NCBI RefSeq assembly: GCF_000346485.2
Contig: NZ_KQ976354.1
Location: 10,994,341 to 11,058,340 of the forward strand
Length of the DNA: 64,000 bases
Direction of reading: 5' to 3'
Source of the DNA: Scytonema hofmannii PCC 7110
GTDB lineage: Bacteria; Cyanobacteriota; Cyanobacteriia; Cyanobacteriales; Nostocaceae
A program made the translations under genes and the position numbers. The notes beneath the pieces were generated by a model. That model had not been told where the DNA came from. It made no database searches and was given only the letters and a program-made list of their open reading frames with translations. This document shows positions 49,698 through 60,072 of the stretch, in pieces. The stretch's first letter is position 1. Each line of letters opens with the position of its first letter.

Positions 49698-50351
49698 TTA
49701 GTTCATCTCAAGAGCCTTATTCGCGACTGCTGTTATCTCTTTGGCTGCTTTTTCCTTACGTTCGCTATAACGGTCTGTTAAGTAGTCAACCTGATCGCGT
49801 AACAATAAAGTAAACTTATAAAGTTCTTCCATGACATCAATGACGCGATCGCGGTAAGGTGAATCCTTCATCGTTCCGTCTTCATTAAACTCCTGATAAG
49901 CTTTAGCGACACTAGACTGATTGGGAATTGTAAACATTCGCATCCAACGCCCCAAAATCCTCAAAGTGTTCACAGCATTAAAAGACTGAGAACCCCCACT
50001 CACTTGCATGACTGCTAAGGTTCTGCCTTGAGTTGGTCTGACTGCGCCTAGAGATAGAGGAATCCAGTCGATTTGGTTTTTCATAATACCAGTAATATTG
50101 CCATGCATTTCCGGTGAAGACCAGACTTGACCTTCAGACCACAGGCTCAACTCGCGTAATTCCTGTACCTTGGGATGAGTATCCGGTACACTGTTGTGAA
50201 TAGGTAACTCACGAGGGTCAAAAAATCGGATTTCAGCACCAAATCCCTCGATGATTCGAGCGGCTTCTTCTGCTAAAAGACGACTATAGGAACGCTCCCG
50301 CAAAGAGCCATATAAAAACAAGATTCTGGGTGGATGATCGAAAGTTGTCAT
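49698..50351 (-). CDS. arsH: ArsH-type NADPH-dependent FMN reductase
   Basis: 217 residues. The flavodoxin-like fold is recognised from [20 protein letters not shown] near 10 (phosphate loop binding FMN), [21 protein letters not shown] near 78 and [27 protein letters not shown] near 113. ArsH reduces quinones and oxidises organoarsenicals, protecting against trivalent methylated or aromatic arsenic. The frame also has a TTG three codons earlier; the ATG is chosen. It is the last gene of the minus-strand ars locus, about 55 bases after the ACR3 stop with a TGGTCAC array between them. Confidence 0.95.
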
Positions 50352-50388
50352 GAAAATCAACGATAAGCTTCTAACTGAGGTTTAAATC

Positions 50389-50440
50389 TGGTCACTGGTC
50401 ACTGGTCACTGGTTACTGTTAAACCTGGTCACTGTTAAAC
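50389..50440. repeat. TGGTCAC heptamer array overlapping the ACR3 3' end
   Basis: About six exact or degenerate TGGTCAC/TGTTAAAC units, the first of them in the arsH-ACR3 gap and the rest translated as the last residues of ACR3. Confidence 0.85.
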
Positions 50441-51575
50441 AACGGGGGTCTCGTAAAGTTGCCTTTTCAGGTTCCCGTGGAAACCAAGCTGCTGTACGTT
50501 TGCAAAACTCAACCAACATCAACATCACTGGCACTTCAATCAAAACACCAACGACCGTAGCTAACGCTGCACCAGAATTTAAACCAAATAACATCACTGC
50601 CGTAGCTATAGCAACTTCAAAATGATTGCTAGCTCCTATCAAGGCTGCTGGTGCAGCATCTTCATAAAAGAGATTAAGCTTTAACGCGGCTACATAACTC
50701 ATCAAGAAAATGAAATTAGTTTGAATAAAGAGCGGTACGGCTATTAACAAGATATGCGAAGGATTATTGACAATCAGTTCTCCTTTAAAAGCAAATAGCA
50801 GTACCAATGTAATTAACAAGGCAGCGATCGAAATAGGAGTGAGATACTTCAAAAATCTCCGTTCAAACCACTCTCTACCTTTATTCTTTAAGATCCAGTA
50901 ACGGCTGTACATTCCAGCAACTAACGGCAAACCTACATAAATGAGTACTGACAAAAATATTGTTTGCCACGGTACTGCTAAATCATTTGCTGCTAATAAC
51001 CATCTACCTAAGGGTGCATACAAAAACAGCATTGCTAAAGAATTCACTGCCACCATGACCAAAGTATGCCCTTGGTTGCCATAGGAAAGATACCCCCACA
51101 TTAATACCATTGCCGTACAAGGAGCTATTCCAAGTAAAATTGTACCCGCAATGTAGGAATTAGAAAGTGCAACTTCAGTGCCGCGAACGATTTCAGATCC
51201 ACTTATCAAAGGACGGAACAACCATCCTAAGAAAAACTGTGCGAAAACCACCATTGTGAATGGTTTGATTAACCAGTTCACTACCAAGGTGAGAACAACC
51301 GGTTTTGGAGCACGAATGGCATTCGTCGCTTGAGAAAAGTCAATCTTCACCATGATGGGATACATCATGAAGAACAAACAAACAGCAATTGGGATAGATA
51401 CCTGGTAAATGCTCATGCTATCGAGAGCCACTGCTACCCCAGGAAACAATCTTCCCAGTGCAATTCCCGCAATAATGCATAAAAAGACCCAAACGGTAAG
51501 GTACTTTTCAAAAAAACTGAGATTGCTCCCAGCTTTTACTTGGGTTGTACTGGCTTGTGGATTGTGTATACCCAT
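50406..51575 (-). CDS. ACR3 family arsenite efflux permease
   Basis: 389 residues with ten membrane helices (first at about 28-48, last near 350). ACR3 signature segments are visible: [20 protein letters not shown] near 62, [17 protein letters not shown] near 145 with the essential cysteine, and [16 protein letters not shown] near 307. It pumps arsenite out through the inner membrane. The ATG is preceded by AAAAGGAAATTTTG. The C-terminal residues TVTRFNSNQ and the TGA come from a TGGTCAC-type heptamer array, an extension beyond the normal end. It follows the phosphatase gene on the same strand. Confidence 0.93.
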
Positions 51576-51674
51576 CAAAATTTCCTTTTAAACCTAAAAA
51601 GAACTGACTTCTGGTTGATTTTGACGTAAATTGTTCAAATATGTAAAATTGTTGCAAAGTGAGTCATGGCGTGC

Positions 51675-52154
51675 TTATTCTCCTGCCAACTCTCGCAAAA
51701 AAGTGGTTTGAGCTTCTCGCAGTTCGACTTCAGGGTTTGCACTGTGAATTGTTTGGATGGCATCGTCATAAGATGCGCCCGTACAAATCAGGTAAGCAGC
51801 TAGGATTGTTCCCGTCCTCCGTCTTCCACTTGTGCAATGAACGGCAACTGCATTGCTAAGGTTATTTTGAGTATCAATAAAATTCTGTAATTCCTGAAGC
51901 TGTTCCTCGTTAGGGGCAGTACCTCCTTTAATCGGTACCCAGAGATGAGGAATGTTTGCCTGCTGATACACATCCAGGTTGGAGGGGTCATCCATTACAG
52001 AGACAATCGCTCCAACTCCAGACGCTTGCAGTTCAGGCAGTTCCTGTGCCATTGGCTTACGAACACCCGCAAGTTTGTTAGGAATCACCCACCACAGGTT
52101 TTCTGAAATGGGTTCGATGAGTTGCTGCTCCATTGGTTTAAACCTTTGTCTCAT
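51675..52154 (-). CDS. Dual-specificity/tyrosine phosphatase-like protein in the ars locus
   Basis: 159 residues. The Cx5R phosphatase loop HCTSGRRRTG is near residue 107, and the segment VIPNKLAGVRKPMAQE near 25 with VSVMDDPSN near 52 fits small cysteine-dependent phosphatases. The general acid Asp cannot be fixed with certainty. The genetic context (arsC upstream, ACR3 downstream) suggests a role in arsenic or phosphate metabolism, such as an arsenate-reductase-like or phosphoprotein function; this is inference. An in-frame Met at position 8 is another possible start. Confidence 0.8.
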   Translation of the reverse strand: MRQRFKPMEQQLIEPISENLWWVIPNKLAGVRKPMAQELPELQASGVGAIVSVMDDPSNLDVYQQANIPHLWVPIKGGTAPNEEQLQELQNFIDTQNNLSNAVAVHCTSGRRRTGTILAAYLICTGASYDDAIQTIHSANPEVELREAQTTFLRELAGE

Positions 52155-52209
52155 TTGTTAACAACGACTTGACCGAACAAGGTGAACCTCAGCTGGCAGA
52201 AGTGAGTTC

Positions 52210-52602
52210 TTAATTGAGAGACGCAATCAGTTGCACAACCCGGTCTTTAATTTCATCACGCACCTGGGGAAAAATTTCAGGTTGTTCTGCTGGGTCATCC
52301 AACTGCCAGTCTTCAAATACTTCCCTCACTACCCACTCCGATGGCAAATTCACGCCACAGCCACACAGTGAAATCACTGCATCAAAATCTTCGGCGTTAA
52401 AGTCACTCAGAGGTTTGGAATATTGGTCAGTGATGTCAATACCAACTTCTTGCATGGCAGAGATCGCCTCTGGTCTGACTTGGCTTGCTTCTAACCCAGA
52501 GCTAGTTACATCAATCTTTCCCTTGCCAAGAGTTTTGGCAAAGCCTTCCGCCATTTGAGAACGGGCAGAATTCTTCTTGCAGACAAACATGACACGTTTC
52601 AT
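52210..52602 (-). CDS. arsC: Arsenate reductase, low-molecular-weight phosphatase-like (glutaredoxin-dependent cyanobacterial type)
   Basis: 130 residues. The P-loop cysteine is in VMFVCKKNSARSQMAEGF near residue 8, and a second redox cysteine pair in VISLCGCGVNLP near 80, with DWQLDDPAEQP near 98 carrying the catalytic Asp. This is the cyanobacterial ArsI-type arsenate reductase, which uses a glutathione/glutaredoxin system. It reduces arsenate to arsenite for export by ACR3. It lies 56 bases before the phosphatase gene on the same strand. Confidence 0.92.
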   Translation of the reverse strand: MKRVMFVCKKNSARSQMAEGFAKTLGKGKIDVTSSGLEASQVRPEAISAMQEVGIDITDQYSKPLSDFNAEDFDAVISLCGCGVNLPSEWVVREVFEDWQLDDPAEQPEIFPQVRDEIKDRVVQLIASLN

Positions 52603-52655
52603 GGTTGAATTTCTCCGTTGAGATCGCGAAATTTATTTGGAATTGGTTATTGAAG

Positions 52656-52850
52656 AAGGCAGGAGGCAGGAGGCAGAGGCTTGATTGCTCACTTCTGTTG
52701 GGGATTCTGACTCCAACCGATTGTAGACACCGTATAGACGGTGGGGTTTTATACCCCATTGGCAGAGGTCAGACGGTACAAAGGGTATTACTTGATACCT
52801 TCTTAACTTATTCCTCCCTTCTGCCCTCTGCCCTCTGCCCTCTGCCTTTC
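52656..52850. repeat. Inverted GGAGGCA / CCCTCTG heptamer arrays
   Basis: GGCAGGA-type units (52656-52680) and CTGCCCT units (52815-52850) flank 130 bases of unrecognised sequence. They occupy the place where the rest of the ACR3 copy should be. Confidence 0.75.
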
Positions 52851-52853
52851 CCA

Positions 52854-52979
52854 GATAAAGGTATCGACTCCAGGGACGAAATAACCGATGCAGACTCCAA
52901 TAGCCATTGCTAAAAAAATCCACAGGGTTAGGAAGCGGTCAAGAAACGAAAGCTGCGCTATAAGATTTTTTCTCTTCAT
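52854..52979 (-). pseudogene. N-terminal fragment of a second ACR3 gene
   Basis: From [16 protein letters not shown] the fragment reads [20 protein letters not shown] and PGVDTFI, the first helix of an ACR3 permease of another subfamily than 50406-51575. Homology ends at residue 42 where a heptamer array begins, so about 330 residues are gone. The frame could be extended to an ATG at 53030 but only the part named is homologous. Confidence 0.8.
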
Positions 52980-53147
52980 CACTAATTCCGCATAATATCT
53001 AGGTGGATGCAATTTTCGGAAATCGGTCAATCTTCAAGTAATATTTTTTACTTTTTTAGAGAAGTGAGTTGGGAGAAATGCGTAAATTTTAGCCTCATGC
53101 CTCCTTTTACTTCCAAGACTCCTTAATCTTTAAAAAATTTGATACTT

Positions 53148-53166
53148 TTATGCTAAATTAGCATAA
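53148..53166. promoter_or_regulatory. Perfect palindrome, possible operator
   Basis: TTATGCTAA-A-TTAGCATAA has nine-base arms and one central base. It lies 170 bases upstream of the truncated ACR3 start, in the gap after the pstS gene. It resembles a regulator binding site rather than a terminator (AT-rich, no loop). The factor is unknown. Confidence 0.5.
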
Positions 53167-53382
53167 TCGGTTTTCAAGTGATTTGCCCATTTAAGTTTTA
53201 AGTGTAGCTTGTTTGGTAATTAACTTAAAAAAATTGATAAATTCTCCTTTCGAGAGCGCCGCTCAAATGCTTTATTAAGCAATCAAAGCGACAACGGTAT
53301 CAAACGCTCATCTGTACCCACTTAAGTACCTGCACAACTGCTGATGATACTTAGCGTCACTGCGTCAGTACCTGAACTCTCT

Positions 53383-54444
53383 TTAAAACTGCTTTCGTTT
53401 CCTTAATAACTCCCCGATTGTCAGATCGAACTGAGCTTTTCCTGCAAACACTGTTCCCACTTTGCCTTGATGCAAGTGAACATAATCGATATGGTAAGCT
53501 TCTGCAGGCAAAGGTACATAACCTACAGAGCTTGAGACTTTTGGTGCTCTCTTAATATAAAAATCTACAAATTGGTATACTGCTTGTTTGTGCTCGCTAG
53601 ACCAAGGATTAACATAGATAAATAGAGGTCTCGATAGTGGTTGATACTTGGCTTTCTCTACAGTTTCACGCGAAGGCAGCACCACTCCTTTACCACTATC
53701 TACACCTAGTGCTTTTAACTTAGTTTTGTGTTCTTCAAGATAGGCATAACCAAAGTAACCTAGAGCTTCTGGATCTTTACTAATTCCCTCTGCTAAGACT
53801 TCATCGTCTTCGCTGGCTACGTAGTCTGTTCGACTGGCTCTGGATTTTCCAACAATTGCTTCTGTAAAGTAGTCAAAAGTACCAGACTTGTTACCTGCAC
53901 CATACAATTTTAAGGGACGGTTGGGCCATGATGCACGTACTTGATTCCAACGAGTGATTTTGCCTTGAGCCGCAGGTGCCCAAATCTTTTTCAACTCCGC
54001 TATGGTAATGTCTTTTGCCCAGTCATTTTGTGGATTTACAACTATGGTAAGAGCATCAAAGGCAATGGGAAGTTCTATGTACCTTACACCATTTTTCTTA
54101 CAAACTTCCATCTCCGAAGTCACAATCGGTCGAGAGGCGTTGCTGATGTCTGTTTTTCCAGCACAGAATTTTTCAAAACCACCTGTTGTACCGGACACAC
54201 CAACTGTCACTTGCACCTGATTGTTTCGGTTTGACTGATACTCTTTTGCGATCGCCTGTGTTATCGGATAAACCGTACTAGAACCATCGATATTAATCGT
54301 TGGTGCTTGCGCTATCTTTGACGGCTCTGTTGCTGGTATCTGTAATTGCGATCGCTTAGCTTCCGATAAGCTAGGTGTTGCCAACCAACTAGGCATCACA
54401 AGCAACATTCCCATTGCAAAAGCCAACTTCACTGACCTTTTCAT
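53383..54444 (-). CDS. PstS-like periplasmic phosphate-binding protein in the ars locus
   Basis: 353 residues with a Sec signal (KLAFAMGMLLVMPSWLATPS). Phosphate-binding elements are visible: INIDGSSTVYPITQAIA near 50, SGTTGGFEKFCAGKTDISNA near 85 and LYGAGNKSGTFDYFTEAIV near 175. It should bind phosphate, or distinguish it from arsenate, for an ABC importer; no pstCAB genes are near. Its location directly after arsR is notable. A close paralog lies dead at 46126-46803. A normal PstS is about 350 residues, so this is full length. A weak TTGA-N4-TCAA motif sits upstream near 54493-54504. Confidence 0.88.
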   Translation of the reverse strand: MKRSVKLAFAMGMLLVMPSWLATPSLSEAKRSQLQIPATEPSKIAQAPTINIDGSSTVYPITQAIAKEYQSNRNNQVQVTVGVSGTTGGFEKFCAGKTDISNASRPIVTSEMEVCKKNGVRYIELPIAFDALTIVVNPQNDWAKDITIAELKKIWAPAAQGKITRWNQVRASWPNRPLKLYGAGNKSGTFDYFTEAIVGKSRASRTDYVASEDDEVLAEGISKDPEALGYFGYAYLEEHKTKLKALGVDSGKGVVLPSRETVEKAKYQPLSRPLFIYVNPWSSEHKQAVYQFVDFYIKRAPKVSSSVGYVPLPAEAYHIDYVHLHQGKVGTVFAGKAQFDLTIGELLRKRKQF

Positions 54445-54553
54445 GGCTTATTTCTATGACATTTAAGAATATACTTCTATCATTTCAAAAAAAATTGATT
54501 TGTCAACAAAAATCTTGTATCTGTTTACAGAAATTTATCAAAAAAATTAATAT

Positions 54554-54883
54554 TTAGGATAACTCGTTACAGGCACGAGTAGGCAAGATCTGGCTGAAGC
54601 GGCGGAACTCTGATAAGTACTGCTCAAGGACAACAAATTGAGGTAGATTAAGGCTGTAATAAATCCAGCGTCCTTCCTGACGCGAACGGACTAAACCTGC
54701 TTCTTTGAGGGTTTTGAGGTGAAAAGACAATTTTGATTGGGTTACCCCTAACGCTTCGCATAAGTCACATACACAAAATTCGTTGTCTCGAAGGAGTTCC
54801 AATATACTAACTCGTAGCGGCTCGGAAAGGGCATGGAATCCAGAAACAACTAAATCGGGAATCGTAGGAGAAGAGGGTTGCAT
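54554..54883 (-). CDS. arsR: ArsR-family metalloregulator
   Basis: 109 residues from the second Met. Winged-helix features: SEPLRVSILELLRDNE near 22, the arsenic-type cysteine motif CVCDLCEALGV near 39 and the recognition helix TQSKLSFHLKTLKEAGL near 50. It represses ars genes and lets go on binding arsenite. A start 14 codons upstream is also open, but the palindromic operator at 54882-54897 falls at the second Met, which suggests that transcription starts there or just above. It is the first gene of the ars group on this strand. Confidence 0.9.
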   Translation of the reverse strand: MQPSSPTIPDLVVSGFHALSEPLRVSILELLRDNEFCVCDLCEALGVTQSKLSFHLKTLKEAGLVRSRQEGRWIYYSLNLPQFVVLEQYLSEFRRFSQILPTRACNELS

Positions 54884-54897
54884 CAATATATTTTGAT
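54882..54897. promoter_or_regulatory. Candidate ArsR operator ATCAA-N6-TTGAT
   Basis: ATCAATATATTTTGAT is a perfect inverted repeat with a six-base spacer, matching the ATCAA-N6-TTGAT pattern reported for ArsR/SmtB sites. It overlaps the chosen arsR start, consistent with autoregulation. Confidence 0.65.
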
Positions 54898-54970
54898 AAA
54901 AAAGTCTCTCTCTATTCTGAACCATAAACTATGAACTTGGCTTAGTTTAGAGCGATCGCAGGCTAACCTT

Positions 54971-55243
54971 TCAACCACCAATACTTACATCATTCTCTGA
55001 ATTTATACCAACAACCAACTCGTATTTGCGGCGTTCCAACTGTTCCCAGAGTGTCTCAATCTGCTTGTAAGCTTCTTCAGGAGCTAATTTTCCCCCAGTT
55101 TTTAAACAAGTAATGTATGTAACCTTCTGTGCAAATTCTTGGAGGTTAGCATTAAAGACTAAATTCTCTGGTTTAACTTGACCGTAGTAACGACGGCGAG
55201 AGTAAAGGAAGTTGTTCAAGTCTTTCAATTGAGTCTGTGTCAT
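54971..55243 (-). CDS. DUF7219-like small cyanobacterial protein
   Basis: 90 residues from the chosen ATG. The block TQLKDLNNFLYSRRRYYGQV, then PENLVFNANLQEFAQKVTYI and a Glu-rich helical end, match what I recall of DUF7219, a cyanobacterial family of unknown function. The protein is soluble and mainly helical. A GTG four codons further upstream lies in a TGGTCAC heptamer array and is not preferred. Confidence 0.65.
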   Translation of the reverse strand: MTQTQLKDLNNFLYSRRRYYGQVKPENLVFNANLQEFAQKVTYITCLKTGGKLAPEEAYKQIETLWEQLERRKYELVVGINSENDVSIGG

Positions 55244-55731
55244 AGCCCTGGTCACTGGTCAGGTGACTATCCAATAGTACATGAAAGCTGTGTAGTCAGA
55301 AAGGCGAGCAGCTTGCAGTCCTTGAAGTGGAAATGAAGTTTTCATAAGTTGCATAACATATTATGAAGTTAAACAGCGTTCAGATCTCCGCTCGCTCCAC
55401 CTCTGCCGTTGGGTTGTTCAGCATATAGATATTTTAAAATCTCTCTAATCCTTTCATTGTTTGCTGTAGCTAAGTTTAGAGCTAGATTGGTATTGGCGGT
55501 TAGCTGTGCGATACGGCTTTAGCCGTTAAGCTTCGCTTATCGCTTCGGCGCAAGCTGAAAGAGCGCTTATCGCGCTCTCAATTCTAGTGAGCGCTCTACT
55601 TCAATTTGACAATGCGGTCTTAGTACAATCTCTCCTTAAGCATTTAAAAGCTCAGGATTATGTTCATAGTTAGCGTTGTGTTACCTTGGTATTAATTGTA
55701 GAACAACGTGTTGAACAAGTAAGAGGAAATC
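55244..55731. other. Repeat-rich gap with a possible gene remnant
   Basis: The minus strand at 55369-55518 has a 49-codon open frame without start codon (beginning SRIAQLTANTNLALNL, ending GGASGDLNAV) that looks coding. It is cut off by the palindromic repeat block 55509-55600 (GAGCGCTTATCGCGCTC and related units). The gap also contains the leader of the IF-3 gene. Confidence 0.4.
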
Positions 55732-56223
55732 ATTATCGTAATCCAAAAGCAACCCATTAACTCACAAATCAAGTCACCTCAAGTCTTCTTGATTGACCAT
55801 GAGAATAACAATCGTGGGCTGAGCGACACCCGTGAGGCTCTAGAGCTAGCCCAGAGCGTAGATCTTGACCTAGTTGTCGTCTCCGAAGGCAAAGAGGCCC
55901 CAGTGGCGAAGATTCTCAACTATGGCAAGCTTCAGTATCAAAAGAAAAAACGTCAGAGCCAGAGTGCTAGACCGATACTTAAGGAAGTTCGGCTGCGTCC
56001 AAATGTGGGTGTGGCTGATTACAATTTACGCATCAATCAAGCCATTGAGTGGTTGAGTAAAGGCGATTCAGTAAAGTTTGTCATTCGTTTGCGAGGTCGA
56101 GAACATCAAAATCGCGGTCATGCTGGAGAACTGCTAGACCGCATTGTAACTAATCTAAGTTCAGTGGGTAAAGTCCAGTCGCTTGATAAACGCTCACTTA
56201 TTGTTCAAGTGATTCCTGCCTAA
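55732..56223 (+). CDS. Divergent translation initiation factor IF-3 paralog with probable AUU start
   Basis: 163 residues. The N-terminal IF-3 domain (INSQIKSPQVFLIDHENN, GLSDTREALELAQSVDLDLV) and C-terminal domain (KEVRLRPNVGVADYNLRINQ, FVIRLRGREHQNRGHAGELL) are both present. No ATG, GTG or TTG occurs between the upstream stop (55720-55722) and the conserved N-terminus, except a TTG at 55789 that would remove the first part. ATT at 55732 lies five bases after GAGG and is the best start, as in E. coli infC. The sequence is much diverged from the usual cyanobacterial IF-3 (ends IVQVIPA), so it is probably a second copy. Confidence 0.85.
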   Translation: MIVIQKQPINSQIKSPQVFLIDHENNNRGLSDTREALELAQSVDLDLVVVSEGKEAPVAKILNYGKLQYQKKKRQSQSARPILKEVRLRPNVGVADYNLRINQAIEWLSKGDSVKFVIRLRGREHQNRGHAGELLDRIVTNLSSVGKVQSLDKRSLIVQVIPA

Positions 56224-56420
56224 ATTAACCAGGAATCTCTTAAGGTTTTCTCAATAAAGGGATGAGGCTTCCGGAGCGATTTGAGTCTATCAATCAACTA
56301 TCTAATTTGTATATTTCTATTGGGCATTAGTCACATAATTTAACATAGCCTACTTGTCCACAGCGACAGCCCAATAGAAGATTTACACTACGCGTTGGCT
56401 TTAGAAAAAATGGTGAGCTT

Positions 56421-56609
56421 GTGGCAACAGTAAATTATAAACAAACAGGGAAATATCTCCCACCTAAGATATTTATTTTGGGAATATGTTTTGTTCCTGG
56501 AATAACTGAAATTAGCGGCGAACAGTTAACTGAAATCCGGCAATTTATCAAGAGCGATCGTTTGCTTCAGCATTATTTGGAGCAGAAAATTTTGATCCTC
56601 CACGATTGA
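56421..56609 (+). CDS. Hypothetical 62-residue protein, GTG start
   Basis: The frame starts GTG after TGGTGAGCTT. The sequence YKQTGKYLPPKIFILGICF then VPGITEISGEQLTEIRQFIK has hydrophobic and amphipathic parts, and its end (LLQHYLEQKILILHD) recalls short phage-tail-associated proteins of the VPGxNEV type. I do not assign a function. Expression is uncertain. Confidence 0.4.
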   Translation: MATVNYKQTGKYLPPKIFILGICFVPGITEISGEQLTEIRQFIKSDRLLQHYLEQKILILHD

Positions 56610-56703
56610 AGATTTCGCCCCTTAAACTTGTTTCGCTTGAGCTTAACTTGTTGGCTGTACCACAAAAGGTTTACCCCCACATACGGTACGGGGGCAATAA
56701 GAG

Positions 56704-57087
56704 CTATGAGTACAAAATTGCTATACTCTCAAAAGGATTCAACAACTGTAAGCTCTCAATCCATTGAAAATCTTTCATGTTTCGCGTAACCAGCTTTAGA
56801 TTATGCGATAATGCAGTTCCCGCAATAATGGCATCCCCTAAGCTCATGCGTCGTATTTGTCGTAACGCGACTGCTCGATCCAGTACGGGTTGGGAAATAG
56901 GGATAACTAGCGATACCGAGAAAAATTCTTCAAGAAACTGTTGTTCTATATCGCTCAGGCGATGATAACCTAGTGTTTCCACGTAGCTCAAAGCTGAAAC
57001 CGCAGGCTCCTGTTCTGCAATAAACTCACGTAGCCTGCTATTTTCAAGTTGAGCCGCATAAATAATAATATTGCTATCCAGAAGCAT
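56704..57087 (-). CDS. PIN-domain toxin (VapC-like)
   Basis: 127 residues. The PIN core has acidic residues expected to bind metal: Asp in MLLDSNIIIY at residue 4, Glu in SYVETLGYH near 38 and Asp in MSLGDAIIAGTAL near 83, plus Asp in TRNMKDF near 105. It is a predicted RNase toxin. The start overlaps the stop of the antitoxin gene (TAATG), as in a translationally coupled pair. Confidence 0.88.
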   Translation of the reverse strand: MLLDSNIIIYAAQLENSRLREFIAEQEPAVSALSYVETLGYHRLSDIEQQFLEEFFSVSLVIPISQPVLDRAVALRQIRRMSLGDAIIAGTALSHNLKLVTRNMKDFQWIESLQLLNPFESIAILYS

Positions 57088-57353
57088 TATTCATTCCGAC
57101 CAGGAAGTTCTCGATCTTGTCGCACATCTTGCTGCCAAGCTACTGGATCGATTTCTGCAAAAGCTTGTGCTTGTGCTAGCTTCTCCAACACTGCTGCCAT
57201 CCGTTGACCGCGCCCATTCTTCTCTTGCATTGGCTCTTCTTCGAGAATTGTAACTAGCACTTGCACTGGGCGACTGTCTTTAGACAAGCGCTGCACTTCT
57301 TCCCCCCACTCCAATGAGTCTCCCCTTAAGGTTGCTCTAAACGTTTGTAACAT
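57087..57353 (-). CDS. Antitoxin partner of the PIN toxin
   Basis: 88 residues. N-terminal segment MLQTFRATLRGDSLEWGEEV and VQVLVTILEEE is typical of cyanobacterial antitoxins paired with PIN proteins; the Glu-rich middle and basic QDVRQDRELPGRNE tail should wrap the toxin. DNA-binding class is not clear from the sequence. Coupled to the toxin by a TAATG overlap. Confidence 0.82.
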   Translation of the reverse strand: MLQTFRATLRGDSLEWGEEVQRLSKDSRPVQVLVTILEEEPMQEKNGRGQRMAAVLEKLAQAQAFAEIDPVAWQQDVRQDRELPGRNE

Positions 57354-57603
57354 AACGAAATTTTAGAATTTGATGGTGTACCAATAGCTCGATTCTAACC
57401 TTTCACATAATTTACACCAAACTTTTGTTGCACGAAGAATGCGATCGCATATTGACCGAGCGTTTCTAGCAGTTGGTTGGTAATGTTTGGATGCAGGCAT
57501 GGACAGTTAAAGAGGAGCAGGAGCAATGTGAACTACTCTTAAAATGCCCATTTCTCTCATCCTTCTAACTCACCAATTAAGTGTACTGGTCACTGGTCAC
57601 TGA
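57354..57603. other. Intergenic region with possible coding remnant and heptamers
   Basis: On the minus strand an open stretch ending at 57395 reads LHPNITNQLLETLGQYAIAF, then FVQQKFGVNYVKG and a stop. It has coding character but no start codon. TGGTCAC units at 57585-57602 end just before the SOD stop codon. Confidence 0.3.
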
Positions 57604-58410
57604 TTACTTGACTTGTGCTCGCTTGTTGACTTCCGACCAGTTCACTATATTCCACCACTTCTCTAAATACTCAGCGCGACGATTGCGGTATTTGAGGTAA
57701 TATGCATGTTCCCACACGTCATTACCCATAATCGGGTAAGAGCCTTCAGCAATCGGGTTGTCTTGATTGGGTGTGGGTACAATTTGCAGTTGACCTTGGG
57801 GATTACGCACTAACCAAACCCAACCACTACCGAATTGCTTTGCTCCTGCTTCGTTAAATTGTTTCTTAAAGGCATCAAAGCTACCGAAAGTTTGATTAAT
57901 TTCTGTTGCTATTGCTCCTGTTGGTTCCCCACCACCTTTGGGACTCATAAGCTGCCAAAAAATAGTATGGTTGAGATGTCCGCCACCGTTGTTGCGTACT
58001 GTGTTACGAATATCCTCAGGTACATTGTTTAAGTCACGCAATAAAGATTCTACACTTCTGTTTTGCAGTTCGGTATGCTTCTTTAATGCATCGTTCAGAT
58101 TGTTAACGTATGCTGCATGGTGCTTGTCGTGATGCAGTTTCATAGTTTCTGCATCAATAACTTTCTCTAGCGCTTCATAAGCATAGGGTAATGGCGGTAA
58201 CTGTGCGGGGGTTTCCAGTTCGCGATCGACATAGGCTACAGGTAGAGCTGGTGCGGTTTGAGCTTGTGTGGCTGCGGGTGTGGCTGCAGTTGTCTCTGCT
58301 GGAGATGGTGACTCAGCTGTTGGTGCTGTTGGCTGACAAGAAGCGAGTAGTGCAAACAGCAAGATTCCTATCAAAAGGTAATTTATTTTTTGCCACAAAA
58401 ACCTCACCAT
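57604..58410 (-). CDS. sodA: Membrane-anchored Fe/Mn superoxide dismutase (lipoprotein)
   Basis: 268 residues. A lipoprotein signal ends LLFALLASC, so the mature protein should start at a lipidated Cys 25; a Pro/Ala/Thr-rich linker follows. The enzyme domain (about 60-265) keeps the four metal ligands: His in [16 protein letters not shown] near 95, His in HLNHTIFW near 150, and Asp and His in [11 protein letters not shown] near 230. GGGHLNH is typical of manganese enzymes. It removes superoxide at the thylakoid or plasma membrane or in the periplasm. The gene is monocistronic. The heptamer array stops two bases before the TAA. Confidence 0.93.
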
Positions 58411-58579
58411 ATCTTAGGCTCCAAATCTATATACTAATACATTGCTGGCTATTATTAGCACTATATTCAGTATATTATTTTTCGTTGTTTTGGGATCTGT
58501 AAATTGTAAATTATAGGACTTACGCACTGTACAAATTACACACCATACGTATCAACGGATAATGGTCGTTTTAGACTAA

Positions 58580-58605
58580 TAGGGGCGCAAGGTCTTGCGC
58601 CCCTA
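58580..58605. repeat. Palindrome TAGGGGCGCAA...TTGCGCCCCTA
   Basis: 11-bp arms around GGTC. A related sequence is at 49508-49535. It is a dispersed hairpin repeat lying between two genes on the minus strand. Confidence 0.65.
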
Positions 58606-58644
58606 CGGTAGGTGGAGAAAGCTCTCATTCTTAAAAGACAGTTA

Positions 58645-60072
58645 TTACCTCTTCTTCTTCTGCTTGCCCTTTGAAGAATTATTTCTATCAAACAAATCTG
58701 CTGCTTGCATGAGCGGAGACTTACGTTTCTTGGGTGGCTTTTCTGATTTTATATCAGGTGGCTCAGATGGTCTTGGATTTGGCAAAAATTGTGATTCTTC
58801 CTCATCAGTTATATCCAAATCAAAATCTTTAAATTGATTGTAAAAGGACTCAAGATTACCTTTCCCTGGTTCAGTTGCAAGAGGAGTCACTTTTTCAATA
58901 CTCCTAGCAAACAAGGTAGCTTCAGCAGTAAAATCAGCCTCAGATACACTATCGGGAGGTAGCCAGCGATGGACAAAATCTAACTGCCACAAGTACTTAT
59001 CAAAAAATTCAATCATTTTTTGTTTAAGTACATTTGTCACAGCAATTGCCTGTTGATGTACTGCTTGTCCAATGACTTGCTTGTTCAATAAAAAGTCATA
59101 GACATAAGGAGTTCCCCAAAGTACGGCGGCTGCTTCTGCTTGACCATCAGATAGTAAACCTCCAATCAACTGGGCAATGTGTTTGTCTAGTGTTTCTTCA
59201 GAAAAAGTAAAGAATTGATCGGGATAGCTCAATTGGTTGCGTGGTAATTTTCGGGAACTCAGAAATTCAAAAAAGGCTCCCCAAAGTCTTTGGCTTGTGA
59301 TAAAACTGACTTGTTTTTGAACAGCCATATAGATAGAAAATGCCAATGATAAAGCACGTAGATTATCATCCCGTTTCTGCTCTGTTTTAAAATCAGCAAA
59401 AAATTGTTGATTGACTTCTATTTCTTTAGTTAAGTTGCGACGAACTTCCGCAATCCAAAGTTGAGACTCTTCTGTTACATACTGCTTGGCTGCATCACCA
59501 AATGCATCCCAATCAACTGTTTCACCTTGTTGCAACTGGCGATAAACTTTTTCCATAAGATCGATCAGGATGACACTAGCCAGTTCATCCTCTGTGCCAG
59601 GAAGCACTTCCTGTGAATTTTTGATCGGCTGATAAGTACTCTTGCATAAATCAACGATTTCTCGTGTTGCACCATAAAATCGCAGATACTCAACAAGGGA
59701 AGACATCATTTGATCGATGCTGCTAATAGGATCGTTCTTAAATTGAGCAAGACAGTAGCTCAAAAGTTCCGGTTGATTGGAAAAAAGGTAATACTTTACC
59801 TGTAGGGTATCAAGATATTGAAATTCTTGAGCATAAAGTTCTGGCTGCTGCTGCTGAACTTTTTCCATCAGTGCTAAAGCATCTGAAATGAGATTATTGC
59901 TACCCAACTCATCTACGAGTTCTACTAGCAATATCCCCAAATCGCTTTCCTCAATCACTTTTGATGGAATTGGGTTTTCTAGCGCCTCTACCATCAACAA
60001 ATGTTTGTCTTTAGCAGAAGCAGCTTCGTAGTCAAGGCACCACTGCTGGGTGTTAGTCAAAATTAAAGACAT
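58645..60072 (-). CDS. Hypothetical protein, 475 residues, paired with FHA gene
   Basis: No recognised family. The protein is soluble and almost entirely helical (for example 65-85, 95-135, 140-165, 180-200, 205-235, 250-280, 330-350), reminiscent of tetratricopeptide-like helical repeat proteins but without a clean consensus. It ends in a basic, Pro-rich tail (PKKRKSPLMQAADLFDR, then KGKQKKKR). It is read from the same strand right after the FHA gene (56-base gap), so a shared role is likely, perhaps as partner of phosphothreonine signalling; inference only. Confidence 0.7.
   Translation of the reverse strand: MSLILTNTQQWCLDYEAASAKDKHLLMVEALENPIPSKVIEESDLGILLVELVDELGSNNLISDALALMEKVQQQQPELYAQEFQYLDTLQVKYYLFSNQPELLSYCLAQFKNDPISSIDQMMSSLVEYLRFYGATREIVDLCKSTYQPIKNSQEVLPGTEDELASVILIDLMEKVYRQLQQGETVDWDAFGDAAKQYVTEESQLWIAEVRRNLTKEIEVNQQFFADFKTEQKRDDNLRALSLAFSIYMAVQKQVSFITSQRLWGAFFEFLSSRKLPRNQLSYPDQFFTFSEETLDKHIAQLIGGLLSDGQAEAAAVLWGTPYVYDFLLNKQVIGQAVHQQAIAVTNVLKQKMIEFFDKYLWQLDFVHRWLPPDSVSEADFTAEATLFARSIEKVTPLATEPGKGNLESFYNQFKDFDLDITDEEESQFLPNPRPSEPPDIKSEKPPKKRKSPLMQAADLFDRNNSSKGKQKKKR

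Follow-up and report, generated by a model that had tools for sequence, protein, structure and literature searches.

Where does translation of a bacterial IF-3 gene begin when its reading frame offers no ordinary start codon ahead of the conserved N-terminus? The question is raised by a gene in the window, the 64,000-nt stretch of Scytonema hofmannii PCC 7110 DNA analyzed here. A preliminary description made from the sequence had called it a divergent IF-3 paralog forced to start at a rare codon, and had placed that start at ATT 55732. The gene is intact in the window (TIGR00168, E 1.7e-37), and its features are listed below.

55676 to 55683, plus strand: conserved block TTGTGTTA, 59 nt before the AUC
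55720 to 55722, plus strand: in-frame TAA closing the frame upstream; a stop lies at the same codon in 64/90 relatives
55723 to 55726, plus strand: Shine-Dalgarno core GAGG, 8 nt before ATC 55735 and 5 nt before ATT 55732
55732 to 55734, plus strand: ATT, the start first proposed; varies among relatives
55735 to 55737, plus strand: ATC (AUC), predicted start codon; ATC in 85/85 and 90/90 unique close relatives
From AUC 55735: predicted N-terminus of the divergent IF-3, fMet-Val-Ile-Gln-Lys-Gln-Pro-Ile-Asn
55735 to 56223, plus strand: divergent IF-3 gene, 162 aa counted from the AUC; coordinates include the stop
55756 to 55962, plus strand: IF3_N domain, residues 9–77 counted from 55732
55789 to 55791, plus strand: TTG, an internal Leu codon; start in the ORF list, 144-aa product
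55978 to 56184, plus strand: IF3_C domain, residues 83–151; profile positions 3–71 of 86

Domain searches, which used the product counted from 55732, revealed IF3_N (E 2.2e-21, 76.2 bits, cut-off 26.9; profile positions 1–69 of 70) followed in order by IF3_C (E 1.1e-17, 64.1 bits, Pfam curated cut-off 34.8), both above the curated cut-offs, together with the TIGR00168 equivalog (128.8 bits, NCBIfam cut-off 60); the protein also matched the sequences of solved IF-3 structures, with E up to 6.5e-24. The 12.3-Mb genome contains one canonical and two divergent IF-3 genes, all three free of internal stops. The canonical infC, found by the genome search that the preliminary description had suggested, lies at C1:7830822 and starts at ATG, and the other divergent copy (C1:2650270) is 86% identical to that in the window. 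The window protein is 37–39% identical to canonical cyanobacterial IF-3, and relatives of the divergent gene occur in Brasilonema, Scytonema, Chlorogloeopsis, Fischerella, Nostoc and other cyanobacteria. The domain matches and the presence of a canonical infC in the same genome bear out the assignment as a divergent paralog. The structure of the frame is likewise as described: the TAA is at 55720–55722, IF3_N matches from 55756, and the earliest ATG/GTG/TTG of the open frame (55723–56223) is TTG 55789, inside the conserved N-domain, so that a rare start is forced. The ATT and ATC codons in frame ahead of 55756 are ATC 55729, ATT 55732, ATC 55735 and ATC 55741. A start upstream of 55720 was rejected, given the TAA here and the stops of relatives at the same codon.

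Nucleotide variation separated the coding part of the frame from the sequence upstream of it. In 115 rows, whose starts were assigned by the Shine-Dalgarno–anchored rule given below, mean heterozygosity at codon positions 1, 2 and 3 was 0.095, 0.107 and 0.31 in codons 55738–55788, as in coding sequence, and near-equal at all positions (0.497, 0.467 and 0.494) in the 17 codons upstream of the start; the start codon itself showed zero variation. This pattern indicates that codons 55738–55788 are under protein-level selection. Initiation at TTG 55789, which would give the publicly annotated 144-aa protein minus the first part of the N-domain, is the most improbable of the readings considered: TTG is an ordinary start codon, occupies this column in 110/178 loci across the class and is the annotated start of two Nostoc plasmid copies, but it lies behind the codons that appear selected, would cut into IF3_N, and is replaced by something other than a start codon in 68/178. 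In those two Nostoc plasmid copies the annotated CDS begins at the equivalent of TTG 55789, 54 nt after the AUC equivalent; the annotated start of a third copy lies 24 nt before the AUC, and a fourth Nostoc copy is partial and lies beside an IS630 transposase. The plasmid that bears one of the Nostoc copies was typed as conjugative; two of the copies are partial. Annotation can therefore clip the first 18 residues of proteins that would start at AUC. Alr0946 of Anabaena (144 aa) was considered as a divergent IF-3 and rejected, as it is CalA.

Comparison of close relatives distinguished the two adjacent candidates. In all 113 divergent loci, 85 of them with a unique start region, the column of 55735 was ATC, and the same held, with longer keys, for 90/90 unique relatives; both counts were made at a fixed column and are independent of the Shine-Dalgarno–anchored rule. 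The column of 55732 contained ATT 56, GTT 21, ACT 3, CTT 3, ATC 1 and CTC 1 among the 85, and ATT 57, GTT 25, ACT 3, CTT 3, ATC 1 and CTC 1 among the 90. Initiation at AUU 55732, as first proposed, would result in the same mechanism as initiation at the AUC, and the spacing of five bases after GAGG is as had been described and acceptable; still, this reading is improbable, since the 57 relatives with ATT stand against 33 with other codons, including the second divergent copy of the same genome (GTT), and since across the class the codon before the start is also CCT, GCT, ACA, GTC or GCC. With ATT 55732 not conserved and ATC 55735 fixed, the AUU is best taken as the codon preceding the start. 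ATG, which in relatives would have spoken for an ordinary start, occupied the fixed column in 0/90 and was absent from the 178 class-wide assignments.

The class-wide set comprised 210 loci, of which 179 were unique after removal of 31 duplicates; left out of the 179 were 32 canonical rows, L124 (two pieces, with an internal stop) and L128 (a C-terminal piece). A MAFFT alignment of the N-terminus misplaced a one-codon length difference in distant rows, with ATC in 118/179 at its column. In its place we used a rule anchored on the Shine-Dalgarno sequence, namely an ATN codon with a Shine-Dalgarno-like word upstream and A, V, T, S, G or L as the next residue, which cannot yield GTG or TTG. The rule assigned a start in 178/179 loci: ATC in 162, ATT in 10, ATA in 6 and ATG in 0. 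L185 failed because its next residue is Arg; read by eye, its start is ATT, which brings the class total of ATT to 11. The distance from the Shine-Dalgarno sequence to the start varied little: AGGA ending 7 nt before the start was the commonest pattern (95/178), and equals GAGG ending 8 nt before the start when a G precedes.

Ordinary alternatives were missing from most of these frames. In 126/179 loci the stretch from the upstream stop to the conserved INxxI motif has no in-frame ATG, GTG or TTG, and in 29/178 none occurs from the upstream stop through the column of 55789. The other 53/179 do have such a codon before INxxI, and some of their frames extend far upstream, so another start far upstream is possible in some of them. 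Seven of the loci have the codon close by, no further upstream than two codons before the assigned start and ahead of INxxI (ATG in L077 and L201, TTG in the other five and also in L077), and the ATG of L077 is two codons upstream of its kept ATC and two bases after GGAGG; in the remaining loci of the 53 the ordinary codon is further upstream. A start of the AUU/AUC/AUA class without an ordinary alternative was accordingly found for the window gene and for most, not all, loci of the class. The recurrence of the pattern in 179 unique loci indicates more than chance, with the reservation that the counts are not independent because the loci are related. ATC, ATT and ATA are the three Ile codons, and third-base exchange alone is therefore no proof of use as a start; judged from sequence, the argument rests mostly on the shortness of the frame and on the absence of alternatives. 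Together these comparisons suggest that the second cyanobacterial IF-3 begins at the rare start codon AUC.

Canonical infC served as a control. This gene, represented in the genome of the window by C1:7830822 (L001), belongs to the same two-domain family, but an ordinary start codon was available within 25 codons before INxxI in 52/52 fetched loci (the best-scoring ones, not a random draw), in contrast to the AUC class of the divergent kind; 26 loci have ATG, and of the other 26, GTG is available in 24 and TTG in 2. Of the 52 loci, 32 were also inspected one by one. In some of the canonical GTG loci this codon aligns with Val 3 of the ATG-started copies, while their own codon at the Met column is ACA, ACG, TCA or CTG, so that some canonical genes may likewise have a rare start and the control is not clean. 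L214–L224 are among the canonical infC loci with ACA, ACG, TCA or CTG at the initiator-Met column and GTG two codons later.

The two kinds of IF-3 were also separated by phylogeny. In a tree of 124 rows, divergent and canonical proteins fell on opposite sides of a branch with 100/97 support, which places the window gene outside the canonical cyanobacterial infC ortholog group, although the bootstrap had not settled and E. coli forms a long branch. Read by eye on a tree with many unresolved forks, ATT or ATA interrupted the ATC rows up to nine times, and ATG never did; these substitutions fit selection to stay within the rejected class, though they are also exchanges among Ile codons. Genome counts, likewise made by eye, placed the divergent kind in 90/145 genomes of the family sample and 79/291 of the class sample, two of the 79 (G324 and G330) matching in the C-terminal part only. 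Outside the class, 104 of the 105 genomes of the phylum sample (counted by eye) had one IF-3 match with a canonical-like score and one had none; within the samples searched, the divergent kind was seen only in the class of the window. Four same-order genomes in the phylum sample (G481, G490, G492 and G532) had two IF-3 matches each, and the second match of G492 scores 220 bits and is therefore not of the divergent kind. Several divergent copies occur in G038, G097 and G143 (L121–L128), with four or five IF-3 matches per genome; an internal stop interrupts one divergent copy of G143, and one of those of G038 consists of a C-terminal piece only. A viral source was rejected, one scan of viral contigs having revealed no relative.

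No canonical IF-3 was detected by TIGR00168 in 27 of the 79 genomes (27/291 of the class sample, by eye). Searching with the canonical protein gave the same outcome in each of the 27, and also in two more genomes, from the family sample, with the divergent copies as the best matches; two further matches of about 21 bits were noise, and the same search found the canonical gene at 75–76% identity in two control genomes. The 29 divergent-only genomes are 83–100% complete, several of them in two to ten contigs. Assembly gaps do occur, as indicated by 5/291 class genomes with no IF-3 match whatsoever, and G408 and G418, which scored weakly for IF-3 in both searches, were taken to carry fragments of the canonical gene. 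In family f23 the divergent kind alone was found in 25/33 genomes and both kinds in 8 (by eye). On the divergent tree the genomes' label of having only this IF-3, given also to any second divergent copy of such a genome, was scattered, with at least four changes forced by well-supported branches (switches counted by eye), suggesting that the canonical gene was lost several times. By genome content, the divergent kind appears able to serve as the only IF-3 of the cell, which the preliminary description had not anticipated.

What would an AUC start entail? According to excerpts of published work, AUG, GUG and UUG, with G as the third base, escape IF3, whereas AUU, AUC and AUA are discriminated (PMC4611024), and a survey of codon–anticodon pairs found that those with weaker third-base pairing are excluded by IF3 (PMC10158994). 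The infC gene begins at ATT in E. coli and at ATC in Streptomyces, and through this start IF3 controls its own synthesis; in most Streptomyces species the infC start is misannotated, and Streptomyces sigR has a GTC start repressed by IF3 (PMC5472188, in part). Since AUC lacks a G at the third position, 30S complexes on it should be rejected by IF-3, and we infer that this would hold for the cyanobacterial IF-3s too. Our main reading, to which we assign a probability of roughly 0.75, is that the divergent IF-3 would be translated in vivo from AUC 55735 behind the GAGG Shine-Dalgarno sequence and be gated, with feedback, by IF-3 start-codon discrimination. Synthesis of the divergent IF-3 would be low while total IF-3 activity is sufficient, and would go up when IF-3 is short relative to 30S subunits, a negative feedback like that of E. 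coli infC. Where both kinds are present, the canonical gene, with an ordinary start available, is likely free of the gate and would act in trans to repress its divergent counterpart; a divergent copy that is the only IF-3 gene would close the loop on itself. Control of the divergent gene by start-codon discrimination is likely on these grounds, a shortage of IF-3 in the cell probably raises its production, and it is plausible, as suggested earlier, that the gene is autoregulated or responds when the main IF-3 is lost.

The known systems resemble this arrangement in part. E. coli infC, like the divergent gene, encodes IF-3 from a start of the AUU/AUC/AUA class rejected by IF-3, but its codon is AUU, whereas here it would be AUC on a divergent second copy beside an ATG-started canonical infC, with regulation that is deduced by analogy. 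Streptomyces infC shares the ATC start for IF-3, often misannotated, and sigR is a precedent for the IF-3 level controlling a non-canonical start; the accessible part of that report (PMC5472188) does not mention a second, divergent IF-3, such as the cyanobacteria studied here have. Among the titles listed, drawn from open literature and few subscription journals, none concerned a second cyanobacterial IF-3 with a rare start, which is weak evidence of novelty. The Nodularia infC transcription starts in the accessible part of PMC3610870 could be ascribed to neither IF-3 copy in particular.

The region upstream of the gene bears on a different reading, in which the AUC is the start but acts as a constant brake without feedback, and control is transcriptional, through a conserved upstream block. 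The word TTGTGTTA was present in 81/114 close-relative rows, in comparison with 3/114 after one mononucleotide shuffle of each, and 64 of those 81 rows had it at −58 to −61; the block (55676–55700) has the pattern TTGTGTTA-N6-8-ATTACTTGC-like about 59 nt before the AUC, and is possibly a promoter or regulator site. In many rows it contains two TTAC words 11 bp apart, which we take to resemble OmpR/PhoB-type regulator sites. This block, and the presence in dual genomes of a canonical copy with an ordinary start available, favor a constant brake; however, ATC, ATT or ATA is kept even where the divergent gene is the sole IF-3 found, and is presumably needed in quantity, and the third-base changes stay within the discriminated set, so we consider this reading unlikely, though the likeliest of the alternatives to a feedback-gated AUC. 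A promoter scan of 55200–56500 gave 4 sites, versus 2.2 (sd 1.7) in shuffles, and none on the plus strand upstream of the gene, and no Rfam match above gathering was found at 50000–60000 of the window.

A conserved operon partner was considered and rejected, the most frequent neighbor being present in just 24/58 loci; this neighbor, in the flanks of L034–L113, is a DEAD-box-helicase-like gene upstream, mostly on the opposite strand. In the window, the sequence at 49698–54925 resembles, by eye, an arsenic/phosphate cluster with an ArsH-like reductase, an ACR3-like transporter, an arsenate-reductase-like gene, a PstS-like gene and an ArsR-like regulator. Within it a short ORF (52803–53030) begins, by eye, like an ACR3-like transporter and runs into repetitive RAEGRGQ-type sequence, and has the appearance of a disrupted duplicate next to the longer ACR3-like ORF at 50406–51578. 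Two adjacent small minus-strand ORFs at 56704–57353 have, by eye, the look of a PIN-domain toxin and antitoxin.

Comparison of C-domain residues (E. coli numbering) revealed a difference between the two kinds of protein. Among the 179 divergent rows, Y107, R131, R133 and E134 were present in all, R129 in 178, R147 in 175 and R99 in 153; some of these conserved residues bind the 30S subunit. R116, present in 50/52 canonical rows, was kept in 3/179 divergent rows and replaced by E in 66, Q in 57 and G in 29, and K123, present in 52/52 canonical rows, was S in 165/179; canonical infC keeps both residues and most divergent copies lack both. As R116 is lost in nearly all divergent rows, the divergent protein may discriminate start codons differently, and a changed stringency is possible. 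A further scheme, which builds on the AUC gate and which we regard as doubtful, would have a housekeeping IF-3 with an ordinary start silence the AUC-started divergent IF-3, which would be made when the housekeeping factor falls relative to 30S (the triggers named being stress, starvation, cold and a resting cell type) and whose C-domain, without the conserved residues, would reset the start-codon stringency applied to other mRNAs; several lineages would have lost the housekeeping gene, with the self-gated factor taking over.

The mechanism proposed is already known; what appears unusual is its location on a separate, widespread paralog that is apparently the sole IF-3 in several lineages. A textbook feedback loop would have moved onto this paralog, in some lineages the sole IF-3 detected, and the role of an AUC-gated factor beside one with an ordinary start thereby becomes open to test. 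The gene may also offer a natural reporter of IF-3 activity in photosynthetic bacteria.
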